NCBI GenBank assembly: GCA_020832185.1
Contig: JAFIFE010000011.1
Location: 62,001 to 126,000, forward strand
Direction of reading: 5' to 3'
Source of the DNA: Alkalibacterium sp.
GTDB lineage: Bacteria > Bacillota > Bacilli > Lactobacillales > Carnobacteriaceae_A
DNA length: 64,000 bases
Below the pieces are notes generated by a model. The model did no database searches and had not been told where the DNA came from. It saw only the letters and a program-made list of their open reading frames with translations. Position numbers and translations under genes: made by a program. Positions 34,718 to 59,860 of the stretch are shown piece after piece (within the stretch, counting starts at the first letter, position 1; the number at the start of each line of letters is the position of its first letter).

Positions 34718-36046
34718 ATGGTTCAAAAAAGAGAACAGTGGGGATCCCGATGGGGGTTCATTATGGCAGCAATGGGTTCAGCAGTAGGATTAGGTAATAT
34801 CTGGAGATTTTCATATGCTATGGGTGAAGGTGGCGGTTCAGCCTTTCTTATTATTTATCTGCTAAGTGTTCTAGTTATCGGCTTCCCTGTCATGCTAATT
34901 GAATTTTCAATTGGGCGTCGTGCACAAACCGATGCAGTCGATGCCTTTAAAAAAATCGCACCCAAAACCGGATGGGTCGCTGCCGGCGGCTTAGGCGTAT
35001 TAGCAGCTTTCCTTATTTTGTCATTTTACGGTGTTATTGGCGGCTGGTCACTGCGCTACTCTTTTGAATACTTGACTGGCGGAATTACCGGCGATTCAGC
35101 AGACTTCTTTGTTGGGTTCATCGGAGACGCTGTTTCTCCTATTGTCTGGCAGTTTATCTTTATGGCTCTAACAGTAGGGATCGTATATCTTGGTGTTCAA
35201 AAAGGAATTGAACTGTCCAGCAAATGGATGATGCCTATTTTAAGCCTGCTGCTGATTGTTTTGGCTGCTTTCAGCTTAACTCTTGGCGGGGCAAGTGAAG
35301 CTTTTGCATTTATGTTCCAGCCGGATTGGGAAGCTTTTACAGACCCAAGCGTATACATCTCCGCAATGGGACAAGCCTTCTTCACATTAAGTTTAGGTAT
35401 GGGAGCTATGCTGACTTACAGCAGTTACCTGGATCCTAAAGAACGATTAACATCATCAGCCGCTATCATTATTGTACTCGACACATTATTTGCATTGATT
35501 TCAGGGTTAGTTATCTTCCCTGCATTATTCGCCTTTGGATTAGACCCTGCAGAGGGGGCTGGCCTAGTATTCATGGTTCTTCCAAACATTTTTGAAGCAC
35601 TTGGAGGCATCGGAACGATAGCAGGATTCTCATTCTTCATCTTACTGTCGATGGCCGCACTGTCATCAGCTATCTCACTGCTTGAAGTAGCAGTTGCCTA
35701 CTTCATCCGTAAACTGAATATGTCACGCAAGAAAGTAACCATCATTGTCGGAACAGTTATCTTCCTACTCGGTGTTCCTTCATCCCTGAGTCAGGGCGCT
35801 GTAAGCATTACTATTTTCGGCAGCTCATTCCTTGACTTCATGGATGCCTTCACTGGAAACTTATTACTGCCATTGGGCGGATTGATCATGGTCTTGTTCG
35901 TGGGCTGGACCTGGACGAAAAAAGAGGTTCTGCATCATGGAGATATTGCTCATAATGCATTCGGCCCGCTTTACTTCTTAACAGCAAAATTTGTTGCACC
36001 CGCTGCGATTCTACTGGTACTGATCATGGGAATGCTCAACTGGTAA
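34718..36046 (+). CDS. Sodium-dependent transporter, NSS/SNF family (LeuT-like)
   Basis: A 442-residue membrane transporter with about eleven helices. The first helix carries the sodium- and substrate-site signature GSAVGLGNIWRFSY (residues 16-29) of neurotransmitter:sodium symporters, and AQAFFTLSLGMGAMLTY matches helix 6. The length is typical of bacterial members such as MhsT and slightly shorter than LeuT. It should import an amino acid with sodium, fitting a sodium-dependent halophilic or alkaliphilic lifestyle. It has an AAAGGAGAG site, its own terminator, and the first 52-bp module array just downstream. Confidence 0.9.
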   Translation: MVQKREQWGSRWGFIMAAMGSAVGLGNIWRFSYAMGEGGGSAFLIIYLLSVLVIGFPVMLIEFSIGRRAQTDAVDAFKKIAPKTGWVAAGGLGVLAAFLILSFYGVIGGWSLRYSFEYLTGGITGDSADFFVGFIGDAVSPIVWQFIFMALTVGIVYLGVQKGIELSSKWMMPILSLLLIVLAAFSLTLGGASEAFAFMFQPDWEAFTDPSVYISAMGQAFFTLSLGMGAMLTYSSYLDPKERLTSSAAIIIVLDTLFALISGLVIFPALFAFGLDPAEGAGLVFMVLPNIFEALGGIGTIAGFSFFILLSMAALSSAISLLEVAVAYFIRKLNMSRKKVTIIVGTVIFLLGVPSSLSQGAVSITIFGSSFLDFMDAFTGNLLLPLGGLIMVLFVGWTWTKKEVLHHGDIAHNAFGPLYFLTAKFVAPAAILLVLIMGMLNW

Positions 36047-36075: not shown

Positions 36076-36121
36076 AAAGCAGTACTTAAAAGGACTATCC
36101 CCCTTTTAAGTACTGCTTTTC
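36076..36121 (+). terminator. Terminator of the symporter gene
   Basis: AAAGCAGTACTTAAAAGG pairs with CCTTTTAAGTACTGCTTT, followed by T. Confidence 0.85.
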
Positions 36122-36220: not shown

Positions 36221-36735
36221 CTTATGTAGGACTCGTCAACTTTTGCTCGCTCCAGTCCTACACAATTGGGCTTTACTGTAGGACTCGTCACTTTTTTGGA
36301 GCGAGCACTACTTATCTGGGCATCTTATGTTGGACTCGACAAACCTTGCTCGCTTCAGTCCTACACATTAAGGCTTTACTGTAGGACTCGTCACTTTTTA
36401 TTGAGCGAGCCCTACCTATCTGATCGTCTTATGTTGGACTCGACAAATTTTACTCGCTCCAGTCCTACACTTTAAGGCTTTACTGTAGGACTCGTCACTT
36501 TTTTGGGAGCGAGCACTACCTATCTGGTCGTCTTATGTAGGACTCGACAAATTTTACTCGCTCCAGTCCTACACTTTAAGGCTTTACTGTAGGACTCGTC
36601 ACTTTTTTGGGAGCAAGCACTACTTATCTGGGCATCTTATGTAGGACTCGTCAACTTTTGCTTACTCCAGTCATACACAATTGGGCTTTACTGTAGGACT
36701 CCTGAATATTTGCAAAGCCAGTCATACATATTCTT
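36221..36735. repeat. Tandem array A: about ten 52-bp hairpin modules
   Basis: TGTAGGACTCG or its variants start at 36225, 36277, 36328, 36380, 36432, 36484, 36536, 36588, 36640 and 36692, i.e. every 52 bases, and alternate between two versions so the true unit is 104 bp. Between them lie complementary AGTCCTACA and GAGC-x-CTAC arms, so each module can fold into a hairpin. All frames are broken, so it is non-coding. It lies between convergent genes. Confidence 0.9.
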
Positions 36736-36843: not shown

Positions 36844-36875
36844 AAGAGGAGAAGCTGCTATCAGCTTCTCCTCTT
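36844..36875 (-). terminator. Terminator of the CmpX-like gene
   Basis: AAGAGGAGAAGCTG pairs perfectly with CAGCTTCTCCTCTT around CTAT, with TTTT next on the minus strand. Confidence 0.82.
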
Positions 36876-36894: not shown

Positions 36895-38166
36895 TTATAG
36901 TTCTGGTGAATCATTTGTTGACCCGCTTGGTTTTGCACTTTCTTTTTCAATTTTCTGATCCGCACGTTCCAGTTGTTTTCTAGCAAAATCGCGTCCGCCT
37001 AGTCCAAATGATAGAGCGAAAGCTACTGCTAGTCCACCAATGATGAACAAGAATGCGAAGTTTACAATTGTGGTAGCAAAGTTTAATTGATCCAGTGCCA
37101 TAAATACTGCAAAAGTGATCAGGATATATTTAACGGTCATTCCAGCAAATGAACTGCCCGTTGCACTCTTGATTCCTGATGCAAGTACTTGGCCACCAAT
37201 AAAGGCTAGGCCGATGATGATTGCAGCAAACAATACGTTTGGCAGGTATAAAATAATAGATGCCACGATAGTGTTCAGCATAGCTAAGTTCAATACGTTC
37301 AACGCTTCAACCAGGAAGAATATCCCGATAAGGAATGAAACGATTTGACCAGTAATTTTAGCCAAGTCAATGTTTACATTTCCTGATTGTTTCAAGTAAG
37401 ATGAATACTTGTTAAATCCAGTTCCTCTTAGTAAGTCAGTGATGATATCTCCGGCAAATTTAGCTAGCACCATACCAATAGCCAGTAAGACTACAGCTAC
37501 CAGGATATTTGGAATCGCCTGAAGAATCGTGTTAAGCACGTCACTTACAGGTTGTGCAATCGTATCGATATTCAGTACATCCAATGCAACCAGAATAATT
37601 GGCACTAAAATCAGGAAGTAAACAATATTTGCCAGAACAGAGGCAAGTGTTCCTTTACTTTGTTCAACTTCTTGGGCATTAGTTTCTGTTCCTGCTCCTG
37701 AAAACTTATCCAGGAAGCGATCCAGATTTGCTGCAACAGCTAAGTTGTACACTAAATTCTTGACAAATTTAGCTGCGAAGAATCCTAACACAAGAACAAC
37801 GATAGCTGAAATGATATTAGGCAGGAATGATAAAGCTGTATCCAGCATGTTTTGAATCGGCTGACCAATAGCTTCCAGACCAAACGTATAGAAAATGCCA
37901 GGTAAAAATAATACCCATACAAGGAAATACCCCACTTTTCCTAACGCGTCGATCATCGTGTGACCCTGTGATTCTGTGTTTGCTGCACCCCATGACTGTA
38001 AACGACTTGCTAACCCAGCTGCTTTTAATCCTTTAGTGATAGCTTTCATCACCAGCGTAGCAACAATCCACGCCACTATTATGAGTACAATACCCATCAA
38101 CAAACGAGGCAAGAAATCGATAAATGTATTCAGACCTCGCTGAAATGAATCTCCAACATTGTTCAT
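36895..38166 (-). CDS. CmpX-like mechanosensitive-channel family protein
   Basis: A 423-residue membrane protein with several repeats of the TM-helix unit (for example FLPRLLMGIVLIIVAWIVATLVMK, FLPNIISAIVVLVLGFF, AIPNILVAVVLLAIGMVLAK and YLPNVLFAAIIIGLAFIGG), ending ALSFGLGGRDFARKQLER, the hallmark of CmpX-type conserved membrane proteins related to small mechanosensitive channels. It probably gates under membrane tension, useful in osmotic shock. The C-terminal tail is acidic and flexible. It has an AAAAGGAG site and its own terminator. Confidence 0.82.
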   Translation of the reverse strand: MNNVGDSFQRGLNTFIDFLPRLLMGIVLIIVAWIVATLVMKAITKGLKAAGLASRLQSWGAANTESQGHTMIDALGKVGYFLVWVLFLPGIFYTFGLEAIGQPIQNMLDTALSFLPNIISAIVVLVLGFFAAKFVKNLVYNLAVAANLDRFLDKFSGAGTETNAQEVEQSKGTLASVLANIVYFLILVPIILVALDVLNIDTIAQPVSDVLNTILQAIPNILVAVVLLAIGMVLAKFAGDIITDLLRGTGFNKYSSYLKQSGNVNIDLAKITGQIVSFLIGIFFLVEALNVLNLAMLNTIVASIILYLPNVLFAAIIIGLAFIGGQVLASGIKSATGSSFAGMTVKYILITFAVFMALDQLNFATTIVNFAFLFIIGGLAVAFALSFGLGGRDFARKQLERADQKIEKESAKPSGSTNDSPEL

Positions 38167-40421: not shown

Positions 40422-41945
40422 ATGAAAAAATTAAATGTATTCGAATGGTCAAAAATATCCTATGTCGCCAAAGGGTTACTCGTTGGTGTCATAGTTGGAA
40501 TAGTTGTCAGCTTGTTCAGGGTCTCAATTGAACTGATGCTGACTTATGTAAGAGAGGTCTATTCATTTTTAAGAGAGGAACCGATCTGGATCATCGGTTG
40601 GGTCTTTGTCATTTTTATTATAGCATTTATTATTGCGATTATGGTCAGAGATGAACCGGATATCAAAGGGTCAGGTATTCAGGATATCGAAGGTCAACTG
40701 CACGGTGTCTTAAAACTGAACTGGTTCTCGATCCTCTGGAGAAAATTTATTGCAGGGGTTCTTGGTATTGGTTCAGGTCTGGCTCTAGGACGTGAGGGGC
40801 CCTCTATTCAGCTTGGGGGTGCTGTCGGTCAAGGTGTGAACCATTTCTTGAAAGGCAATCAGTCACAGCAGAATATCCTCATTTCTGCTGGTGCAAGTGC
40901 GGGTCTCTCAGCTGCATTTAATGCGCCTGTTTCAGGTATTATGTTTATTCTGGAAGAAGTCCATCATAAGTTTTCCGGTGTGCTTCTGTTAACCGCCTTT
41001 TCAGCATCGATTACAGCGAATTTTATAGCCTATCAAATATTTGGCGTTCAACCTGCTCTTGATATCGGTTCTTTACTGCAGTTTCCGTTGGAGCATTATG
41101 TTCACCTTGTATTAATGGGTATCTTTCTAGCTGTTGCAGGCTGGGGCTATCAGGAAGTATTGATGTACATGCCTGTTCTTTACAGGAAATTGCCGATTCC
41201 GCCGTATCTGCACGGCTTTGTGCCTTTCCTGATCCTCATTCCCATTGGTCTATATCTGCCGGAAATGATGGGCGGCGGAACTGGGGTCATTAGTTTAATA
41301 AGTTCCAGCAGACTCTCAACCACCTTACTTATTGGTATTTTCCTTTTCCGCTTTGCGTATTCGCACATATCATATGGATCCGGTCTACCTGGAGGGATTT
41401 TCATCCCTGTCTTAAGCTTAGGTGCGATCTTAGGAGCCATTTATGGAAATGGTGCGCTATGGGTCACCGGTATTGAGGATATATTCATTAGAAGTTTTAT
41501 TATATACGCTATGGGTGGCCTTCTGACCGCAGTGACAAAAGCACCGTTGACAGCGGTCATGCTGATCACTGAAATGACGGGAACGGTCACTCAGTTGATG
41601 CCCCTGGCTGTAGTTTGTCTGACATCCTATGTTGTTGCTGACTTTCTCGGATCTGATCCAGTATACGAAGAATTGCTGCAGCGTAAGATTCACCAGATAC
41701 CAAAAGTGTTTGAAGGAGAAGTCACACAGTTCGAAGTCTCCGTTGAACCCGACAGTGATTTGGATGGGATGATGGCTCGTTACCTGAGACTGCCTTATGG
41801 GTCTAAACTGATCAAAGTCAAACGCCATCAGAACGAGTTCATACCGCATCAGGATACTGTGTTCTGGGCCGGCGATGAATTATTCTTTACGTCAGATAGC
41901 GGCTTTGTATCGGAAGTGAAAAAGTATTTAGATAAAATCAATTAA
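40422..41945 (+). CDS. ClC-type chloride/proton exchanger with RCK/TrkA-C domain, copy 1
   Basis: A 507-residue membrane protein of the ClC family, residues 1-410, with the anion-binding GSGIQ (83-87), GREGPS with gating Glu125, and GSGLPGGIFIPVLSLG near 325. The Glu at the gate is that of exchanger types. The C-terminus (about 425-507) is a small TrkA-C-like domain, LIKVKRHQNEFIPHQDTVFWAGDELFF, likely a regulatory ligand-binding module. It may export chloride or manage acid stress. The next gene is a close paralogue of identical length. Confidence 0.9.
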   Translation: MKKLNVFEWSKISYVAKGLLVGVIVGIVVSLFRVSIELMLTYVREVYSFLREEPIWIIGWVFVIFIIAFIIAIMVRDEPDIKGSGIQDIEGQLHGVLKLNWFSILWRKFIAGVLGIGSGLALGREGPSIQLGGAVGQGVNHFLKGNQSQQNILISAGASAGLSAAFNAPVSGIMFILEEVHHKFSGVLLLTAFSASITANFIAYQIFGVQPALDIGSLLQFPLEHYVHLVLMGIFLAVAGWGYQEVLMYMPVLYRKLPIPPYLHGFVPFLILIPIGLYLPEMMGGGTGVISLISSSRLSTTLLIGIFLFRFAYSHISYGSGLPGGIFIPVLSLGAILGAIYGNGALWVTGIEDIFIRSFIIYAMGGLLTAVTKAPLTAVMLITEMTGTVTQLMPLAVVCLTSYVVADFLGSDPVYEELLQRKIHQIPKVFEGEVTQFEVSVEPDSDLDGMMARYLRLPYGSKLIKVKRHQNEFIPHQDTVFWAGDELFFTSDSGFVSEVKKYLDKIN

Positions 41946-41980
41946 CCGCCCGTGATTGGGCATGCTAAGAGGAGCACTGT

Positions 41981-43504
41981 ATGAGACGTTTGAAGTTTAT
42001 TGACTGGTCCAAGATCAGTTATGTTTTAAAAGGAATATTAGTTGGAGCTGTTGCTGGCGCAGTCGTCAGTGCTTTCCGTATGGCCATCTATACTACACTA
42101 AACGTTATGCCTGATGTCTATGGGTTTTTAAGAGTCAACCCGTACTGGACGTTCGCCTGGGCGTTTGTCATATTGGTCATTGCATTTCTGGTGATCCTTA
42201 TGGGGAGAGACGATCCGGATATTCAAGGGAACGGGGTAGCCGAACTGAAAGGCCAGCTTCAGGGAACATTAAAGCTAAACTGGTGGTCGATTCTCTGGAG
42301 AAAATTTTCAGCGAGTACCCTTGTTTTAGGAATGGGTCTCCCTGTTGGAAGAGAGGGTCCTTCCATCCAAATCGGCGGAGTCGTCGGGCAAGGGATCAAT
42401 CGCCTTTTAAAAGGCAATAAATCTCAGGAAAACATCCTGATTTCAAGCGGAGCGGCAGCAGGCTTATCTGCTGCCTTTAATGCGCCCATGTCTGGACTCG
42501 TCATTATCTTAGAAGAAGTGCATCACCGATTTTCGGGTGTGCTGATTTTGACAGTATTTACTGCTTCCGTCACTGCAAATTTTCTGGCCTTCCATCTTTT
42601 CGGATCACAACCAGCATTAGCATTAGGCCGAATGGCTGAATTCCCTCTCGAGTATTACCTGTACCTTGTCGTACTAGGTATTTTTCTGGCTCTAGCTGGG
42701 TGGGTGTTTCAAAAGGTGCTGTTTGCTGTCCCTAAATGGTATGCAAAGCTCCCTATCCCTCCCTATCTCTTCGGGTTCATTCCCTTCCTTCTCGTTATTC
42801 CAACGGGGTTATTCTGGGAAGAAATGCTGGGAGGCGGAACGGGGATCATCACCGATATTGCTTCAGTTCGGACCGCTACTGTGATGCTGTTAGGCATGCT
42901 GGCCTTCAGATTTATTGCCTTTCATATTGCTTACGGATCTGGTATTCCGGCAGGTATGCTTATTCCTATGCTGACTATTGGCGCCATTTTAGGGGGGATT
43001 TTCGGCAATCTGGTTCTTAGAGGAACAGGTCTTGAAGATGAATTCATTCGTAACTTTGTTATTTTTGCAATGGGCGGATTCTTTACTGCTATTTCGAAAG
43101 CACCCCTTACTGCTATTGTCTTGCTCACCGAAATCACAGGATCGATCACTCAGATGATGCCGATCGCAGTCGTCTGTCTGACAGCCTATATTGTTGCCGA
43201 TATACTGGCATTAGAACCGATCGATGAAATCACCTTATATAATAAAACCAATCGATTCCCTACCGTGTTTGAAGGAAAACTGATTCACATGGACGTGTTT
43301 GTGGAGCCGAATACGTATCTTGATGGCATGCAGATGAGTCAGCTGACTCTGCCTTACAATGCTAAGTGTGTGCGCATCAAACGTCACAGCAATGAATTTA
43401 TGCCACACCGGGATACTGTTTTATTGTCCGGGGATGAACTTCAGATAGCTTGTGACCAGGGATTTGTCGTGCAAGTTAAAAACTATATCAGCAAGTTGAA
43501 CTGA
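41981..43504 (+). CDS. ClC-type exchanger with RCK/TrkA-C domain, copy 2
   Basis: A 507-residue paralogue of the protein encoded 35 bases upstream, with collinear sequence, the same gating Glu125 in GREGPS and the same C-terminal TrkA-C module. The anion-site Ser84 of the copy-1 GSGI motif is Asn here (GNGV), and GSGIP-AGMLIP replaces GSGLP-GGIFIP. Substitutions at that Ser alter anion preference in other ClCs (a Pro gives nitrate selectivity in plants), so this copy may move a different anion. Tandem duplication is evident, and the divergence shows it is old. Confidence 0.9.
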   Translation: MRRLKFIDWSKISYVLKGILVGAVAGAVVSAFRMAIYTTLNVMPDVYGFLRVNPYWTFAWAFVILVIAFLVILMGRDDPDIQGNGVAELKGQLQGTLKLNWWSILWRKFSASTLVLGMGLPVGREGPSIQIGGVVGQGINRLLKGNKSQENILISSGAAAGLSAAFNAPMSGLVIILEEVHHRFSGVLILTVFTASVTANFLAFHLFGSQPALALGRMAEFPLEYYLYLVVLGIFLALAGWVFQKVLFAVPKWYAKLPIPPYLFGFIPFLLVIPTGLFWEEMLGGGTGIITDIASVRTATVMLLGMLAFRFIAFHIAYGSGIPAGMLIPMLTIGAILGGIFGNLVLRGTGLEDEFIRNFVIFAMGGFFTAISKAPLTAIVLLTEITGSITQMMPIAVVCLTAYIVADILALEPIDEITLYNKTNRFPTVFEGKLIHMDVFVEPNTYLDGMQMSQLTLPYNAKCVRIKRHSNEFMPHRDTVLLSGDELQIACDQGFVVQVKNYISKLN

Positions 43505-45641: not shown

Positions 45642-45814
45642 CGTTCCCATCCTCTCTCGATAATAGAGTAATGCCTTCACTATTATGGTATGATTCTTTC
45701 CGCTTTTTATCAATGAATAGGAGCTGGAACCAGTCATCACCACGTCCTCCTTAAGCAAAAGAGTGATATAATTGACCTTAAACATACTATTATAACTTGG
45801 GAGTGACTGGAAAA

Positions 45815-46261
45815 ATGAAAACATCAGAACTGAAGTTGGACCATATGAATGAACTTAAACGCCTCTTCCTGGAGGTGTTCTCAGCTGAGCCCTGGCTGGA
45901 TGAATGGGAAGATAAACAGTTGACCCTTTATTTGAAAGACTTGACGGAAAATAGCAATTCACTTTCCCTGATTTTGACTGATGATCAGGACCGCATGATT
46001 GGAGGTGCTTTAGGGTACGTCTTCCACTGGTGGGAAGGCAAAGAGTATTATATTAAGGAGTTCTTTATTTCCAGAGAAGAGCAAAGCAAAGGAGTCGGTA
46101 GTGTTTTTCTTGATCAGATAGAGGCCGTCTTAAGCAAACAGGGCATTAAACATCTCACATTAAATACAGAAAAAACAGTCCCTGCCTACTCTTTTTATCA
46201 AAAAAACGGCTTTAGCGAATTAAGTGAGTCCGTCTTCATGGCGAAAAAAATACTGGAATAG
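45815..46261 (+). CDS. GNAT-family acetyltransferase
   Basis: A 148-residue acetyltransferase. The CoA-binding block [17 protein letters not shown] is at about 90-106 and the C-terminal motif is YSFYQKNGF. Start at 45815 preceded by a moderate GGGAG. Substrate unknown, and divergent from the macrodomain gene. It is just upstream of the 51-bp repeat array. Confidence 0.8.
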
Positions 46262-46354: not shown

Positions 46355-46762
46355 CAACTGGTCACTAAACCGCGATTCTGACTAGTTGCTGCTCCTTTCG
46401 TTCAGGAACTGGTCTCTAAAACGCGATTGTGACTAGTTGATGCCCCTTTCGTTCAGGAACTGGTTACTAAAACCGGATTGTGACTAGTTGCTGTCGCTGT
46501 CGTTCAGGAACTGGTTACTAAACCGCGATTGCGACTAGTTGCTGTCCCTTTCGCTCGGGAACTGGTTACTAAACCTCGATTGTAACTAGTTGCTGCTCCT
46601 TTCGCTCAGGAACTGGTTACTAAACTACGATTGCGACTAGTTGCTGCTTCTTTCGCTCGGGAACTGGTCACTAAACTGCGATTGTGACTAGTTGCTGCTT
46701 CATTCGCTCGGGAACTGGTTACTAAACTGCGATTGTGACTTATTTCTTTAAGCATACTTATT
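46355..46762. repeat. Tandem array B: eight 51-bp hairpin modules
   Basis: AACTGG starts at 46356, 46407, 46458, 46509, 46560, 46611, 46662 and 46713, exactly 51 bases apart. Each unit pairs AACTGGTTAC with GTGACTAGTT (10 bp with G-T pairs) and continues with TGCTG-C-CTTTCG-TC. The upstream GTGACCAGTT (46327-46336) pairs perfectly with the first AACTGGTCAC, so the arms can pair in two registers. All reading frames contain stops. It lies between convergent genes. Confidence 0.9.
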
Positions 46763-47016: not shown

Positions 47017-48753
47017 TTAGTCATTGATTTCTTCTGCTATTTCATCATGCAGTGAGGTATCGACTTTTTTACCGAACAAGAAAACGATCATAATGACAAC
47101 CAGAGTTGCCAGACCTAATACGATATAGACATTCAGTCCGAATGCTGTCGGCAGATACCCGAAGAACACGGATACGAGCGCAATTGTTATAGCGTACGGC
47201 AGTTGCGTTTTCACGTGATCAAGCAAGTTGGACCCTGCTCCCATAGAAGACAGAATAGTTGTATCTGAAATAGGTGAAGAATGATCTCCAAAAATAGCCC
47301 CTGTTAATACCGCACCCGCAGACATAACAATAAAATCAGCATTTTCAGGCTGCATCGCTGTGGCTAATGGAATAGCTAAAGGCATTAAAATACCCATTGT
47401 TCCATAAGACGTTCCTGTCGCAAATGAGATAACTGCTCCAAGGAGGAAGATAACCGTCGGCAATAAGAATGGCGGTAGGGTATTTCCTAATAGAGACACT
47501 AGATAATCTGCTGTTCCGAGTTCACCCATCACACCTGATAGGGACCAGGCTAATACGAGAATAACCCCTGTGATCATTAGTGTTTTCATTCCAGATACCC
47601 AGATATCGATTCCTTTACCAAAGGTGAAATGACCTTTAATGACGCCCATTAACAATGCAATAATGCTGGCAATCAAAGCGGCCTGGAACAACACTACAGA
47701 AGCGTCTGAAGCTCCAAACGCTTCTCTTAAAGTGACAAATGAAAAGGGTGCATTTTGAATCGTCTGAATTAGTGCAGTATTATCCGATGCCAGAATAGCC
47801 TGACGACCATCCGTGTAAAAACCAATGAAACTGAACACAATCAAGGCGCCAATTGGAATCAGTGCACTCCAGATTGATGGCTCACCTTTGGCTATGACTT
47901 CCAAATCTTCTTCCTGGTTTTCAGCTGAAGATCCGTGTGCAATCAGCTGATGCGTGTCACGGGCACGTTCCTGAGCTTTTCTCATTGGACCAAATTCTCG
48001 TAACGTAGCCGATGTCAGTACGACGAATAATAGCATTAAAATATTATAGAATCGGTAAGGGATCGTCTGCAAAAAGACCCCATAGGCATTTACTTCATGT
48101 CCGATTGAAAGATAGGCATCGTTGATCAGGCCGACTTCATACCCGATCCATGTGGATATCAAGGCAATCCCGGCAATTGGTGCTGCCGTCGCATCAATAA
48201 CAAACGCCAGACGTTCACGTGAAATTTTCATTTTATCTGAAACTGGACGCATGATCGGTCCAACAATCAGTGCATTCGCGTAGTCATCAAAAAAGATTAG
48301 TAATCCAAGTGCCCAGGTAATCAGTTGTGTACTGATCGGTCCTTTCGCTTTTTTAGCCAGTGCTTCTGCAATTGCTCGCGCCCCACCTGAACTGGTGATC
48401 AAGGCAATCAGGCCTCCAATAACCAGAACCTGCAAGATGATCCCCGCGTTCCATGGATCTGCAAGAGACGTTAAAATGTACTGAACAATATCAGTAAATC
48501 CTAAAATAATACCGCTAAGGATATTCGCTCCTCCCGTGTACTGAGCAATGATTGTTCCTGAAAAGATCCCAAGGAATAATGACAGCACGACGTTCTTAGT
48601 AATAAATGCTAACACAATGGCGACTAGAGGGGGGATCAGCGTAACTGCTCCAAGCGTTGAAGCGAGACTCCCTTCTGCTTCAGCCGCGAAAACGGGGCTG
48701 GGGATAAAATAAAGAAGAGCGATAAGGATGGACCATTGTAATTTTCTTTTCAT
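47017..48753 (-). CDS. NhaC-family transporter, predicted lysine importer/antiporter (LysW-like)
   Basis: A 578-residue membrane protein of the NhaC family with about twelve helices. It begins with a cleavable-looking signal (PSPVFAAEAEG), and has GLLIFFDDYANALIVGPIMRPVSD, FGDHSSPISDTTILSS and FATGTSYGTMGILMPLA, the ion-binding segments. NhaC members move sodium against protons, but a branch regulated by lysine riboswitches (LysW) is predicted to take up lysine. Here a full lysine riboswitch precedes it, so lysine uptake is the better reading. It has its own terminator and an acidic C-terminal tail. Confidence 0.88.
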   Translation of the reverse strand: MKRKLQWSILIALLYFIPSPVFAAEAEGSLASTLGAVTLIPPLVAIVLAFITKNVVLSLFLGIFSGTIIAQYTGGANILSGIILGFTDIVQYILTSLADPWNAGIILQVLVIGGLIALITSSGGARAIAEALAKKAKGPISTQLITWALGLLIFFDDYANALIVGPIMRPVSDKMKISRERLAFVIDATAAPIAGIALISTWIGYEVGLINDAYLSIGHEVNAYGVFLQTIPYRFYNILMLLFVVLTSATLREFGPMRKAQERARDTHQLIAHGSSAENQEEDLEVIAKGEPSIWSALIPIGALIVFSFIGFYTDGRQAILASDNTALIQTIQNAPFSFVTLREAFGASDASVVLFQAALIASIIALLMGVIKGHFTFGKGIDIWVSGMKTLMITGVILVLAWSLSGVMGELGTADYLVSLLGNTLPPFLLPTVIFLLGAVISFATGTSYGTMGILMPLAIPLATAMQPENADFIVMSAGAVLTGAIFGDHSSPISDTTILSSMGAGSNLLDHVKTQLPYAITIALVSVFFGYLPTAFGLNVYIVLGLATLVVIMIVFLFGKKVDTSLHDEIAEEIND

Positions 48754-48820: not shown

Positions 48821-48840
48821 TAAAAAATAAACATTGAGTA

Positions 48841-48997
48841 GGATAGTGCTCCACGAAATCGTGACAGTCATACGTTTGTTTAACGTATGCCCAGAACAGT
48901 GAGCTGCCGCCCGCCTATCCTTCGGCAAAGAACCCTTTCATGATCAGTCTCAGGATGCCTCCTCATGACCACTACTCTTTTTCTTCGCGCCTCTATC
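48841..48997 (-). ncRNA. Lysine riboswitch (L box)
   Basis: On the minus strand it opens GATAGAGGCGCGA, continues with AGTAG, GAGGAGGCATCCT, TGAAAGGG, TTGCCGAAGGATAGG, GGGCGGCAGCTCACTGTTCTGGG and ACTGTCACGATTTCGTGGAG, and closes GCACTATC, pairing with the 5' GATAG. These blocks in this order are the conserved L-box core. About 157 nt, a little shorter than usual. It controls the NhaC-type gene through the terminator downstream. Confidence 0.93.
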
Positions 48998-49119
48998 TTT
49001 TTAATTTTCACAACGTTTATTAGTCTACACTGTTTTCGATTTTAATTCAAGGAAAGATTTCTAGAACAGAGAATACTTCCCTCTTTCCTCACGAAAATAT
49101 TAATAGACCTGTCTATAAT

Positions 49120-56529: not shown

Positions 56530-56558
56530 ATAGATTAAATATCAAAGGAGTGAGATTC

Positions 56559-57731
56559 ATGTTTGCCACTAAACGACTGCGCTATGCTACACTGCTTTTA
56601 TCTACAGGTCTGCTTTTTGCCGGCTGTGCAGGTGAGTCAGATGAGACTCTCGATCCTGAGACACCTGATGATGAAGTGATTGCTCCGGAACTTGACGATG
56701 ACACGGATGAAGAATCTGATACTGATTCAGAGAACGGAGATGCCCAAGAAGAGGACGAAGACGCATTCGCGGTCTCTCAGGACTTGGAGCTATGGCTTCC
56801 TAAAACAGAAAATACATTGTTCGACTATGAAGGAGACGGGATCGAGTATGCCTCATTCACCCGCTACCCTCAATTTGCGCATGAAGACACCTATCAGTTT
56901 GTAGAAGCTACTTCCGGAACGGATGTCGTCTTTGTTTATGAGTATTCTGATGATGAAGTCAGAGAACGTTTTGTCCGACCAGAAACCTATTTTCGTGATG
57001 ATGTAATGGATACTGGTCTCAGTAGTTCTCAGGAAGACCATGAAATCATTTTACAGCTGCCGATTGAAATGGGCCATTCCTGGGAAAGTCCAACCGGCTC
57101 CACTTCAGAAATAACAGATGTCGAATTTGAAATCGACACTGAATTTGGAACGTTTGAAGCAATCGAAGTGACCCGCACCATCGATGACAATGACATAATT
57201 TACTATTATGCTGAAGGCATAGGTTTAGTTGAACGAGTATCTAATCCAGGTGATGACGAGATGGAAATTACCTCTACTTTAGTATCTCGTTCAGAAGATG
57301 TGCCTGAAGAATTGTCACTCACACTCTTCACATTGGATGATCAGGGTGAAAGCTTAAATGCTTCGAATGTGACTATTGAGCTGTTTACTAACGAGCCTAT
57401 TCGACTCGCCTTAGCCGATGCTCTTCGGGGGGAAGCACCAGATACTGAGACAGCCGCTATGATTACAGAGGGTGTTGATATTAATTATATGTTTCTTGGT
57501 GAGAATGATATTGCCTACGCTGACTTTTCCGTTGAATTAATTGAAGAAATGAATGCTGGAGCGGGAATTGAATCGCTGATTATTCAGGGACTCTTAAATA
57601 CCATTGGTGGCTATTATAATGTTGAAGACGTGCTGCTGACTGTCGATGGAGAACCATACTCTTCTGGACACTTAGAATTGAGTGAAGGCGAAACATGGAC
57701 AGTTGATCATTCGAACGTCACTTGGGAATAA
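56559..57731 (+). CDS. Lipoprotein with acidic linker and GerMN-like domain
   Basis: A 390-residue lipoprotein: signal with LFAGC (lipid Cys23), an extremely acidic linker (about 27-75), a beta-rich middle domain (TENTLFDYEGDGIEYASFTRY to about 240), and a C-terminal domain with FSVELIEEMNAG and the VEDVLLTVDGEPY ending of GerMN folds (about 270-385). GerM-type domains act in spore-related or envelope protein complexes, and here in a non-spore-forming lineage the role is open. The ATG at 56559 has AAAGGAG eight bases before it. It is the last gene before the third repeat array. Confidence 0.72.
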   Translation: MFATKRLRYATLLLSTGLLFAGCAGESDETLDPETPDDEVIAPELDDDTDEESDTDSENGDAQEEDEDAFAVSQDLELWLPKTENTLFDYEGDGIEYASFTRYPQFAHEDTYQFVEATSGTDVVFVYEYSDDEVRERFVRPETYFRDDVMDTGLSSSQEDHEIILQLPIEMGHSWESPTGSTSEITDVEFEIDTEFGTFEAIEVTRTIDDNDIIYYYAEGIGLVERVSNPGDDEMEITSTLVSRSEDVPEELSLTLFTLDDQGESLNASNVTIELFTNEPIRLALADALRGEAPDTETAAMITEGVDINYMFLGENDIAYADFSVELIEEMNAGAGIESLIIQGLLNTIGGYYNVEDVLLTVDGEPYSSGHLELSEGETWTVDHSNVTWE

Positions 57732-57745
57732 CATCAAAAAATATG

Positions 57746-57784
57746 AAAGCCCTCATTTTCTACTTTGAAAATGAGGGCTTTTTT
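57746..57784 (+). terminator. Terminator after the lipoprotein gene
   Basis: AAAGCCCTCATTTTC pairs perfectly with GAAAATGAGGGCTTT around TACTTT, followed by T-run. Confidence 0.9.
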
Positions 57785-57841
57785 GGTGTCCGTGATAGAG
57801 GGACTCTGTTAGGCAATCAGTTTCGTATGTTCCCATTCATG

Positions 57842-58260
57842 CCCCATTATGTAGGACTCATGGGTCCTCTGCGCACCGAGAGCTACACATAACTGCTTTT
57901 ATGTAGCACTCGATGGGGCGCGATGGGGCGAGTCCTACAATTTATACCCCATTGTGTAGGACTCATGGGTCCTCTGCGCAGCGAGTGCTACACATAACTG
58001 ACTTTATGTAGTACTCGGTGGAATATGATGGTGCGAGTCCTACAATTCATACCCCATTGTGTAGCACTCATCAGTCCTCTGCACAGCGAGTGCTACACAT
58101 AACTGCCTTTATGTAGCACTCGGTGGGGCGCGATGATTCGAGTAATACAATTCATGCCCCATTGTGTAGGACTCATGGGTCCTCTGCACAGCGAGTGATA
58201 CTCATAACTGTCTTTATGTAGCACTCGTTGGAATATGATGATGCGAGTCAGCCCATTCTC
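57842..58260. repeat. Tandem array C: 105-bp units, each two hairpin modules of 52-53 bp
   Basis: CCCCATT-x-TGTAG recurs at 57842, 57947, 58052 and 58157 (105 bp apart). Arms GAGTCCTACA and TGTAGGACTC alternate with GAGTGCTACA and TGTAGCACTC every 52 or 53 bases. Each can pair with its neighbour on either side. It shares these arm sequences with array A, 21 kb away, so both belong to one repeat family. It lies between convergent genes, and the minus-strand reading frame in it is a shadow. Confidence 0.9.
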
Positions 58261-58392: not shown

Positions 58393-58414
58393 GCTCTGCT
58401 CTGCAAAAAGAAAA

Positions 58415-58441
58415 AAGGAAGAACCCTGGGGGTTCTTCCTT
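58415..58441 (-). terminator. Terminator of pepV
   Basis: AAGGAAGAACCC pairs with GGGTTCTTCCTT around TGG, with a minus-strand T-run. Confidence 0.85.
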
Positions 58442-58450
58442 CCTCTTTAA

Positions 58451-59860
58451 TTATTTGACGAGTTCATAGATTGCTTCAGCATAAATGGCCATAGCGTTCA
58501 TCAAGTCGTCCACTGCCATGAATTCATTAGCCTGATGCATAGTATCGATGCTGTCAGGGAACATTGCGCCGTACGCAACGCCACGTTTCATCAAGCGTCC
58601 ATATGTGCCTCCACCAATAACCATTTCGTGTGCTTCCAGTCCTGTCTGACGGTGGTAAACATCAAGTAGAGTCGTTACTAATGGGTCATTAGCTGGTACA
58701 TAGTGAGGCTCTTTTCCATCAGTCTTCGATAACTCAACGTCATATTGAGATAATTTAGCTTTGAAGCTGTCAAAAATGCCCTCTTCTGTCAACCCTTGAG
58801 GATAACGCATATTAACAGTGATTTTTCCACTTTCATTAGCTTTATAAGAAAAGACGCCAGAGTTGGATGTCAGTTCGCCCATCACTTCATCTGTGTGATC
58901 GATTCCCAATTTCTTACCTTCAGGATCGTCATGCAAGTATAACGTAATCACTTCAAGGAATGTCTTCGCATCTTTCGCAAAGTCAAATTCTGACAAGAAA
59001 CGAGCCAGGTACGTTGCTGCATTTACGCCGCTTGCAGGTTTACTGCCGTGAGCCGCTTTTCCTGTTATTTCTACGGTGACTTTGTCGCCATCGACAGCAG
59101 CCACACCTTTAACAGGCAATCCGCTTAAGAAATCATTTAGGCTAGATTCGATTTCATTAGGGTTACTGCTTTTCACGACCGCTACTGCATCTTGAGGAAC
59201 CATATTTGGACGCAGGCCTGATTCAAACTCGATCAGTTCATGAGTCGATCCTGTTCCATCTGCTTTTGTTTCGATAAATACTGTTGCATTTCCTTTTTCA
59301 CCGTTGATGATCGGGAAAGCTGCATCGGGTGAGAAGCCAAAATCAGGTTCAGGTTCTGTTTCCAGATAATGCTTGATCCCTTTCCATTCACTTTCTTCAT
59401 CCGTTCCGATAATAAAGCGTACCTTTTTAGAAACTGGCAAGTCCAGATCTTTGATCATTTTCATTGCATAATAAGCTGCAACTCCAGGCCCTTTGTCATC
59501 ACTTGATCCACGTGCATAGATACGGCCATCTTTAATGACAGGGTCGAAAGGATCTGTTTCCCATCCTGTTCCAGTTGGTACGACGTCAACATGCGCAAGA
59601 ACACCCATCAGTTCATCGCCTTCACCGAATTCAATATGCCCAGCCCAGTTGTCAACGTTTTTAGTAACAAATCCATCACGTTCACCTAAAGCTAAAAAGG
59701 CCTCTAATGCTTCTTTGGGTCCTGGTCCAACAGGCGCATCTTCCGTTGCCTTGCTGTCATCACGGACGCTGTCTATACGTAAAAGGTCAAATAAGTCTTC
59801 CAGGAATGCATCTTTGCGTTTCGCTGCTTCTGCTTTCCAGTCAATTGTCTGTTCTGTCAT
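58451..59860 (-). CDS. pepV: Dipeptidase PepV
   Basis: A 469-residue M20 metallopeptidase. Zinc-binding motifs follow the PepV order: LAHVDVVPTG (His), RGSSDDKGPG (Asp), TDEESEWKG (Glu), and the C-terminal PDSIDTMHQANE (His). It hydrolyses a broad range of dipeptides in the cytosol of lactic acid bacteria. Length is exactly that of the lactococcal/lactobacillar enzyme. AGGAGG before the ATG; monocistronic. Confidence 0.95.
   Translation of the reverse strand: MTEQTIDWKAEAAKRKDAFLEDLFDLLRIDSVRDDSKATEDAPVGPGPKEALEAFLALGERDGFVTKNVDNWAGHIEFGEGDELMGVLAHVDVVPTGTGWETDPFDPVIKDGRIYARGSSDDKGPGVAAYYAMKMIKDLDLPVSKKVRFIIGTDEESEWKGIKHYLETEPEPDFGFSPDAAFPIINGEKGNATVFIETKADGTGSTHELIEFESGLRPNMVPQDAVAVVKSSNPNEIESSLNDFLSGLPVKGVAAVDGDKVTVEITGKAAHGSKPASGVNAATYLARFLSEFDFAKDAKTFLEVITLYLHDDPEGKKLGIDHTDEVMGELTSNSGVFSYKANESGKITVNMRYPQGLTEEGIFDSFKAKLSQYDVELSKTDGKEPHYVPANDPLVTTLLDVYHRQTGLEAHEMVIGGGTYGRLMKRGVAYGAMFPDSIDTMHQANEFMAVDDLMNAMAIYAEAIYELVK

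Follow-up and report, generated by a model that had tools for sequence, protein, structure and literature searches.

Extragenic tandem arrays with a 51–53-bp module in Alkalibacterium sp. and relatives: a candidate length-locked lattice of half-sites

Three tandem arrays (A, B, and C), each lying between two converging genes in a draft genome of Alkalibacterium sp., raise the question of what trait unites modules that differ in sequence and nearly agree in length, and whether such arrays act as RNA or as DNA. The stretch analyzed, hereafter the window, comprises 64,000 nucleotides (C27:62001-126000) of a 2.64-Mb draft assembly (G000; 28 contigs, 95% complete), and at 4 of 4 loci the named relatives of the transporter that flanks array A are Alkalibacterium. 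The first-pass annotation had described array A as ten 52-bp modules in two alternating versions that form a 104-bp unit, and this anatomy is borne out by TRF, which reports positions 36221-36701 of the window at period 104 (4.6 copies, 88% matches, score 717) and a second row at period 52 (9.2 copies), and by a half-site scan, in which the 20 half-sites alternate strictly in orientation and all 19 steps between them measure 25-27 bp. The gapped-dyad pattern of array A, allowing up to three mismatches, has two matches in the window, which represent both strands of one site (0.03 expected). The near-equal modules ascribed to arrays B and C (51 bp and 52-53 bp) are likewise real by TRF, which lists further periods of 53 and 210 for array C, and gene calls confirm that A, B, and C each lie between convergent genes (Table 1). 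The half-sites of array C, TGTAGSACTCR, are of the type found in A (type 1) with a different filling, and the dyad of array B (type 2) is AACTRGTYWC-N12-GWRACTAGTT. Pairing of the arms, also claimed at the outset, holds for the half-sites of array A and is imperfect in many modules, and the location of the arms on one face of the DNA is arithmetic only, 51-53 bp being approximately five turns.

Table 1. Positions of arrays A, B, and C and of their neighboring features in the window.
Feature	Position	Strand	Description
Array A	36225..36728	.	Ten 52-bp modules = 20 half-sites of the TGTAGGACTCG type; 104-bp super-unit
Left convergent gene of A	34718..36046	+	Sodium-dependent transporter family (NF037979)
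Right convergent gene of A	36895..38166	-	Mechanosensitive ion channel family (NF033912)
Terminator-like hairpin, left gene, ahead of array A	36076..36119	+	Coordinates by reading
Terminator-like hairpin, right gene, beyond array A	36844..36875	-	Symmetrical; also listed on +
Array B	46356..46740	.	Type 2; 51-bp modules, TRF 7.5 copies
Left convergent gene of B	45797..46261	+	Acetyltransferase-like; all matches under curated cut-offs
Right convergent gene of B	47017..48753	-	Na+/H+ antiporter-like transporter; all matches under curated cut-offs
Array C	57835..58249	.	105-bp super-unit = two 52-53-bp modules; TRF 4.0 copies
Left convergent gene of C	56550..57731	+	393 aa, without NCBIfam match
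Right convergent gene of C	58451..59860	-	Dipeptidase PepV (NF005591, TIGR01886)
Terminator-like hairpin, left gene, ahead of array C	57746..57781	+	Symmetrical; also listed on -
Terminator-like hairpin of pepV, beyond array C	58411..58445	-	

Over the whole of contig C27 (305 kb), TRF identified five arrays (A-E) with periods of 51-53 or 104-105 bp, and these occupy the five longest of the 33 convergent gaps (848, 755, 752, 719, and 554 bp); the next long convergent gaps (432, 364, and 317 bp) hold no lattice by eye. Among gaps of at least 300 bp, arrays are present in 5 of 8 convergent gaps versus 0 of 29 others, a split with a chance of approximately 1 in 8000 by our own arithmetic, A-C having prompted the search and D and E being independent. 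Arrays on other contigs were found by BLAST and by models R1 (type 2) and R2 (type 1), and the search beyond C27 covered types 1 and 2 only, other types being uncounted. A genome-wide check of placement, as the first-pass annotation had proposed, came out in favor of convergent gaps in this genome: 17 of the 19 arrays with readable flanks are convergent, one is tandem, and one is divergent, and none of the 19 lies within a called gene, the end of D overlapping the right-hand gene call by a few bases. In this count, L025 is taken as convergent by a long-ORF reading, the hexamer caller having given no left gene; the left gene of L090 is a fragment of 84 aa where its contig begins; just three half-sites each pass the threshold used in L086, L092, and L093; and L091 was dropped for want of a half-site cluster. 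The hexamer caller was trained on C27, and errors are possible in relatives. By eye, the type-2 arrays L021 and L023 (C5 with C22) and L022 and L024 (C16 with C13) are similar in module order, which would suit the copying of entire arrays from one site to another.

Among 395 genomes of the order, type 2 was detected in 13 at E 1e-4, and the same 13 emerged among 60 at E 0.01; they comprise 11 of 12 genomes of the same genus (G000-G009 and G011) and, from another genus in the same family, 2 of the 5 listed. A search of 28 genomes, in which the type-2-bearing other genus was not represented, detected type 1 in five, each from the same genus as G000. The sequence models miss much of the phenomenon, since G010 (158 kb), which gave no model hit, holds six non-coding arrays of period 51-52 (3 convergent, 2 tandem, and 1 divergent). 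Seven arrays of 51-52 bp, two being type 2, occur in 400 kb of G021:C2 (1 convergent, 5 tandem, and 1 divergent). Convergent placement thus fails as the defining feature that the first-pass annotation had made of it, because relatives hold many tandem or divergent arrays. G027, from another family of the order, carries two 52-bp arrays on one 20-kb stretch, chosen because it was known to contain an array, and none in the other sequence scanned, a further 20 kb plus twelve small contigs that total 20.6 kb; on G027:C62 (L169 / L248), a 52-bp array with a ACTTGNTCA dyad lies in a divergent gap adjoining a run of N. As for the other stretches, C27 contains the window and G021:C2 was marked by model hits, whereas the G010 contigs had come up in searches unrelated to arrays. 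Arrays of 52 bp were absent from the stretches scanned of G016 (300 kb), G035 (100 kb), G028 and G032 (80 kb each), G029 (60 kb), and G019 (40 kb). Contigs G000:C24 (L090), G002:C57 (L031), and G002:C49 (L253) start, and G003:C9 (L096) ends, in or near arrays, and draft assemblies therefore probably undercount them. Coding repeats were rejected as an explanation, 52 not being a multiple of 3 (51 is) and the gene calls placing the arrays in non-coding gaps; L031 and L047 were kept as arrays although a small low-scoring ORF overlaps each. Array A had no match among phages and array B none among plasmids, these being the two combinations run.

The common trait of the arrays is length, not palindromy, since only 13 of 35 arrays have a consensus unit whose best symmetry axis is superior to that of 95% of shuffles; a dyad as the general trait fails in 22 of 35 consensus units. 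The averaged 52-bp consensus of array A itself fails against shuffles (278/400), as do those of several other arrays, and averaging a 104-bp unit down to 52 bp hides some dyads. By length, all 32 non-coding TRF rows of period at least 30 (20 arrays on the stretches of G000, G021, G010, and G027) fall at 51-53 bp or multiples thereof, and modules of four or six turns are absent from all 20; rows below 30 are mostly sub-periods within arrays, with one 21-bp row elsewhere in G010. The same length emerges from a motif-free 7-mer lag spectrum computed over gaps of at least 200 bp, in which pairs at lags 51-53 are compared with the expectation from neighboring lags: observed versus expected pairs were 236/6.9 in G000, 679/14.2 in G021, 508/4.2 in G010, and 66/1.6 in G027, and with TRF arrays masked they were 24/6.9, 25/13.4, 17/3.8, and 7/1.6, respectively. 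Controls gave 2/12.1 (G016), 5/4.8 (G035), and 14/8.2 (G028, G032, and G029 together), and the small G019 sample gave 6 pairs versus 0.7 expected without a TRF array. In the first 300 kb of G016:C1 (L197-L211), the 7-mer lag peak stands at 61/122 bp without a non-coding TRF row and is perhaps a CRISPR array.

Spacing is kept while the sequence between the dyads drifts. Across 40 fetched loci, with repeated sequence removed, 125 of 137 type-2 dyad-to-dyad steps measure exactly 51 bp (4 measure 50 and 8 measure 52), three further steps measuring 103-104 bp. In 61 adjacent type-2 pairs, chosen for a spacer identity below 0.45, mean spacer identity is 0.31 (0.32 between loci) and that of the arms is 0.76. 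For type-1 half-sites with a neighbor at most 110 bp away, the starts are separated by 26-27 bp in 162 of 263 inward pairs and by 25-26 bp in 156 of 271 outward pairs. The orthologous lattice of G002 and G005 at the channel-gene site is 302 bp long in each species and differs by 41 substitutions and by two alignment gaps that compensate each other, versus 61 substitutions and 8 indel events over the 263 columns that make up the remainder of the gap; its half-site cores are 95% identical and other lattice columns 83%, in a comparison of one gene pair in two species whose indel contrast alone is modest. Furthermore, G000 and G003 share a type-2 array of seven dyads each in a 51-bp register, with weak outer dyads and largely different spacers. 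The recurrence of ACTCA in 27 of 73 arrays (1.6 expected) and of ACTCG in 12 of 73 (0.7 expected), arrays that were picked by period and include related ones, suggests that they may have a loose core in common.

The same gene pair can carry different arrays in different species. At the channel-gene site, 52/104/105-bp arrays with other half-sites occur in G001, G008, and G011 (1.9 copies in G011); by eye and without a TRF row, a degenerate lattice is seen in G002, G004, and G005 and a degenerate type-1-like lattice in G003; and no array is present in G006 (113-bp gap), G010 (246 bp), G007, or G009. The pepV site carries an array in G000, G001, G002 (2.0 copies, where a contig ends), G004, G005, and G008, and the half-sites of these arrays drift among TGTAGSACTCR, TGTCGCACTC, TGTCGAACTC, TGTCGTGCTC, and another in G004. 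The pepV gap is array-free in G009 (90 bp) and in G010 (128 bp), where two terminator-like hairpins stand back to back, and no array is found in the 208 bp at a contig end in G007; the 528-bp gap of G006 was unscored, and in G003 and G011 the contig ends within the site. One convergent pair holds a type-1 array in G000 versus a short type-2 array in G005.

The dyad in types 1 and 2 is real, and arm pairing falls to at most 43% when the partner is slid by 1-3 columns, as for any dyad. Compensation between the arms amounts to a slight excess that is not convincing: same-module arms pair at 84.2% versus 82.8% with arms shuffled (32 of 500 shuffles as high), the covariation score is 0.145 versus 0.125 (33/500), and arm pairs changed on both sides number 7 versus 6.5 (260/500). 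In a further comparison, pairing is 0.742 versus 0.731 (64/1000). For type 1, pairing is 0.728 versus 0.716 with arms shuffled within arrays (12/1000) and 0.701 across arrays (0/1000), and the corresponding values for type 2 are 0.749 versus 0.740 (47/1000) and 0.735 (36/1000). The covariation test set by the first-pass annotation thus speaks against a structured RNA element, the excess being slight and not zero. Of 31 array pieces, 17 fold with z <= -3 on both strands; five of the seven G021 arrays and the channel-site array of G008 do not. RNAalifold found no pair in the type-1 alignment, which contains indels, and no Rfam family was found at the arrays of the window or at seven array loci. 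Strong inward terminator-like hairpins occupy 22 of the 34 flanks of the 17 convergent arrays in G000 (4.7% in shuffles), and 15 of 34 have them on the opposite strand, since the stems are symmetrical; the other 12 of 34 have no strong terminator-like hairpin. The protection of mRNA 3′ ends, one of the roles suggested at first, is unlikely where such a hairpin separates gene from array (22/34 flanks). The unconvincing arm covariation and the hairpins ahead of many arrays fit a lattice in DNA better than RNA hairpins, and a role as DNA is accordingly the one that the sequences would favor, sites for gyrase or for another protein being possible.

REP/BIME elements, which bind gyrase, IHF, or Pol I, were named by the first-pass annotation by way of analogy, and the resemblance is supported in layout, array types 1 and 2 being short extragenic palindromes in many copies. 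The available part of one account describes REPs as extragenic palindromic units of 20-40 bp with an unpaired GTAG or CGTC tag, in several families per genome, with neighbors often in opposite orientation, located mostly between unidirectional or convergent genes, and, for GTAG REPs, often near RAYT genes (PMC3733652). By contrast, the common trait here is the fixed 51-53-bp module, and by eye neither of the two types checked (1 and 2) has an unpaired GTAG/CGTC tag, the GTAG of one arm facing the CTAC of the other in type 1 and the type-2 consensus having neither tag. The RAYT domain (Y1_Tnp, PF01797) had 0 matches in G000, with a positive E. coli control, although not every genome with REPs has this domain. 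It was found in 11 of the 28 genomes searched, including array-bearing G002, G003, G005, G009, and G010, and not in type-2-bearing G001, G004, G006, G007, G008, or G011 (G021 and G026 lay outside that search), and its presence does not track the arrays either way.

The sopC site of the F plasmid (parS-F) is described, in the part of the source available, as a row of twelve 43-bp repeats in which a dimer binds the inverted repeat of each unit (PMC9178275), and arrays of types 1 and 2 are alike in being tandem fixed-length modules, each with a dyad. Across arrays, however, only 13 of 35 consensus units have a dyad better than that of 95% of shuffles; sopC is one plasmid site within the sopABC cluster, whereas the arrays occupy many chromosomal loci with differing half-sites; and no parA/parB match was found among the six array-flanking and three other window proteins scanned. 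In array layout, the regular period, the palindromic repeats, and the dissimilar spacers of degenerate type-2 arrays recall CRISPR, from which the arrays differ in that repeats vary between modules, the spacer is only ~19 bp, and loci are many. We class the arrays as a variant of extragenic repeat arrays belonging to neither REP/BIME nor sopC. A literature search, which left aside most subscription journals and preprints, returned nothing on them, and as far as our searches show they are undescribed; PMC3119063 is unrelated in the part available.

The best reading, to which we give slightly less than even confidence, is a length-locked lattice of half-sites for a putative dimeric DNA-binding protein. 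The arrays would act as double-stranded DNA and form a class of extragenic tandem arrays locked at 51-53 bp, whose modules would offer the dimer its half-sites, which in types 1 and 2 are inverted. With a module of approximately five helical turns, successive dimers would be set on one DNA face and could join into a multimer, a complex that would lie outside transcription units and have an architectural, anchoring, or insulating role. This reading draws on the anatomy of A-C, on the spacing conserved despite randomized spacers, on the sequence turnover at the same gene pair, on the extragenic placement, and on the frequent terminator-like hairpins between gene and array; the protein, the multimer, and the role we infer from these. 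Counting against it, half-sites as unlike as those of a single genome would call for more than one protein or for a loose specificity, the folding of 17 of 31 pieces is also expected under an RNA or cruciform model, and the arms of a module match each other slightly better than arms shuffled inside arrays do. The 12 of 34 flanks that lack a strong terminator-like hairpin also count against it, as does the dyad count of 13 in 35, which slightly lowers its odds and raises those of a satellite.

The main rival, unlikely on balance, is a neutral or selfish satellite, in which slippage and unequal exchange amplify the unit, quasi-palindrome correction keeps the arms alike, arrays survive where harmless, and 52 bp is inherited from one ancestral unit. 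It would account for sequence turnover and homogenization inside arrays, for presence or absence at one gene pair (the pepV site being array-free in G010 and G009, for example), for the 22 of 35 consensus units whose dyad is no better than in shuffles, and for the location in long gaps often bounded by terminator-like hairpins. A neutral unit length should, however, drift at the divergence observed, whereas spacing stays at 51 where spacers are random, and the lattice shared by G002 and G005 shows no net length change beside flanks with 8 indel events. That the arrays are REP/BIME-like mobile palindromes, moved by a transposase unrecognized here and located by insertion tolerance, appears improbable: the fixed module, the lattices retained at orthologous sites, and the lack of PF01797 matches in G000 and six other type-2-bearing species oppose the alternating extragenic units, often downstream of genes and in several families per genome, that REPs also show in the available part of their description (PMC3733652), the G000 type-2 arrays of similar module order at different loci (C13/C16 and C5/C22; by eye), and the PF01797 matches in G002, G003, G005, G009, and G010. 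An RNA element, whose transcribed hairpins end, protect, or insulate converging transcripts, is very improbable; the pieces with z <= -3 on both strands (17/31) and the slight within-module pairing excess suit it, but arm changes are not convincingly compensatory, folding is lacking in several arrays, many arrays come after a strong terminator-like hairpin, no Rfam family was found at the arrays searched, and relatives place arrays in tandem or divergent gaps.

A broader form of the length-locked lattice, rather doubtful though worth stating, is that the arrays may be an element of chromosomal architecture set by a length ruler and not by sequence, whose half-sites and spacers are replaced inside a species as well as from one species to the next. 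A projection from the stretches scanned, with 5 arrays in 305 kb (C27), 7 in 400 kb (G021:C2), and 6 in 158 kb (G010), would give, with the same doubt, tens of extragenic lattices per genome. If such a ruler were real, it would imply either that the ruler is blind to sequence or that the lattices are formed by DNA-binding proteins of a family that evolves fast; for the intergenic DNA of bacteria, a spacing under constraint where the sequence is free would be unusual, and it would point to an unknown complex. Sister species in which one gene pair is array-free or carries arrays of different sequence constitute natural experiments, by which the old question of what REP-like arrays do becomes directly testable.

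Two features in the vicinity of the arrays deserve mention. The only Rfam matches in the window are one tRNA and a lysine riboswitch (RF00168, 102.5 bits, 48836-49003, minus strand), which lies directly upstream of the antiporter-like gene bordering array B, and the transporter may have lysine as its cargo. Between arrays A and B, two successive 507-aa ORFs (40422-43504, plus strand) are possibly a tandem gene duplication.
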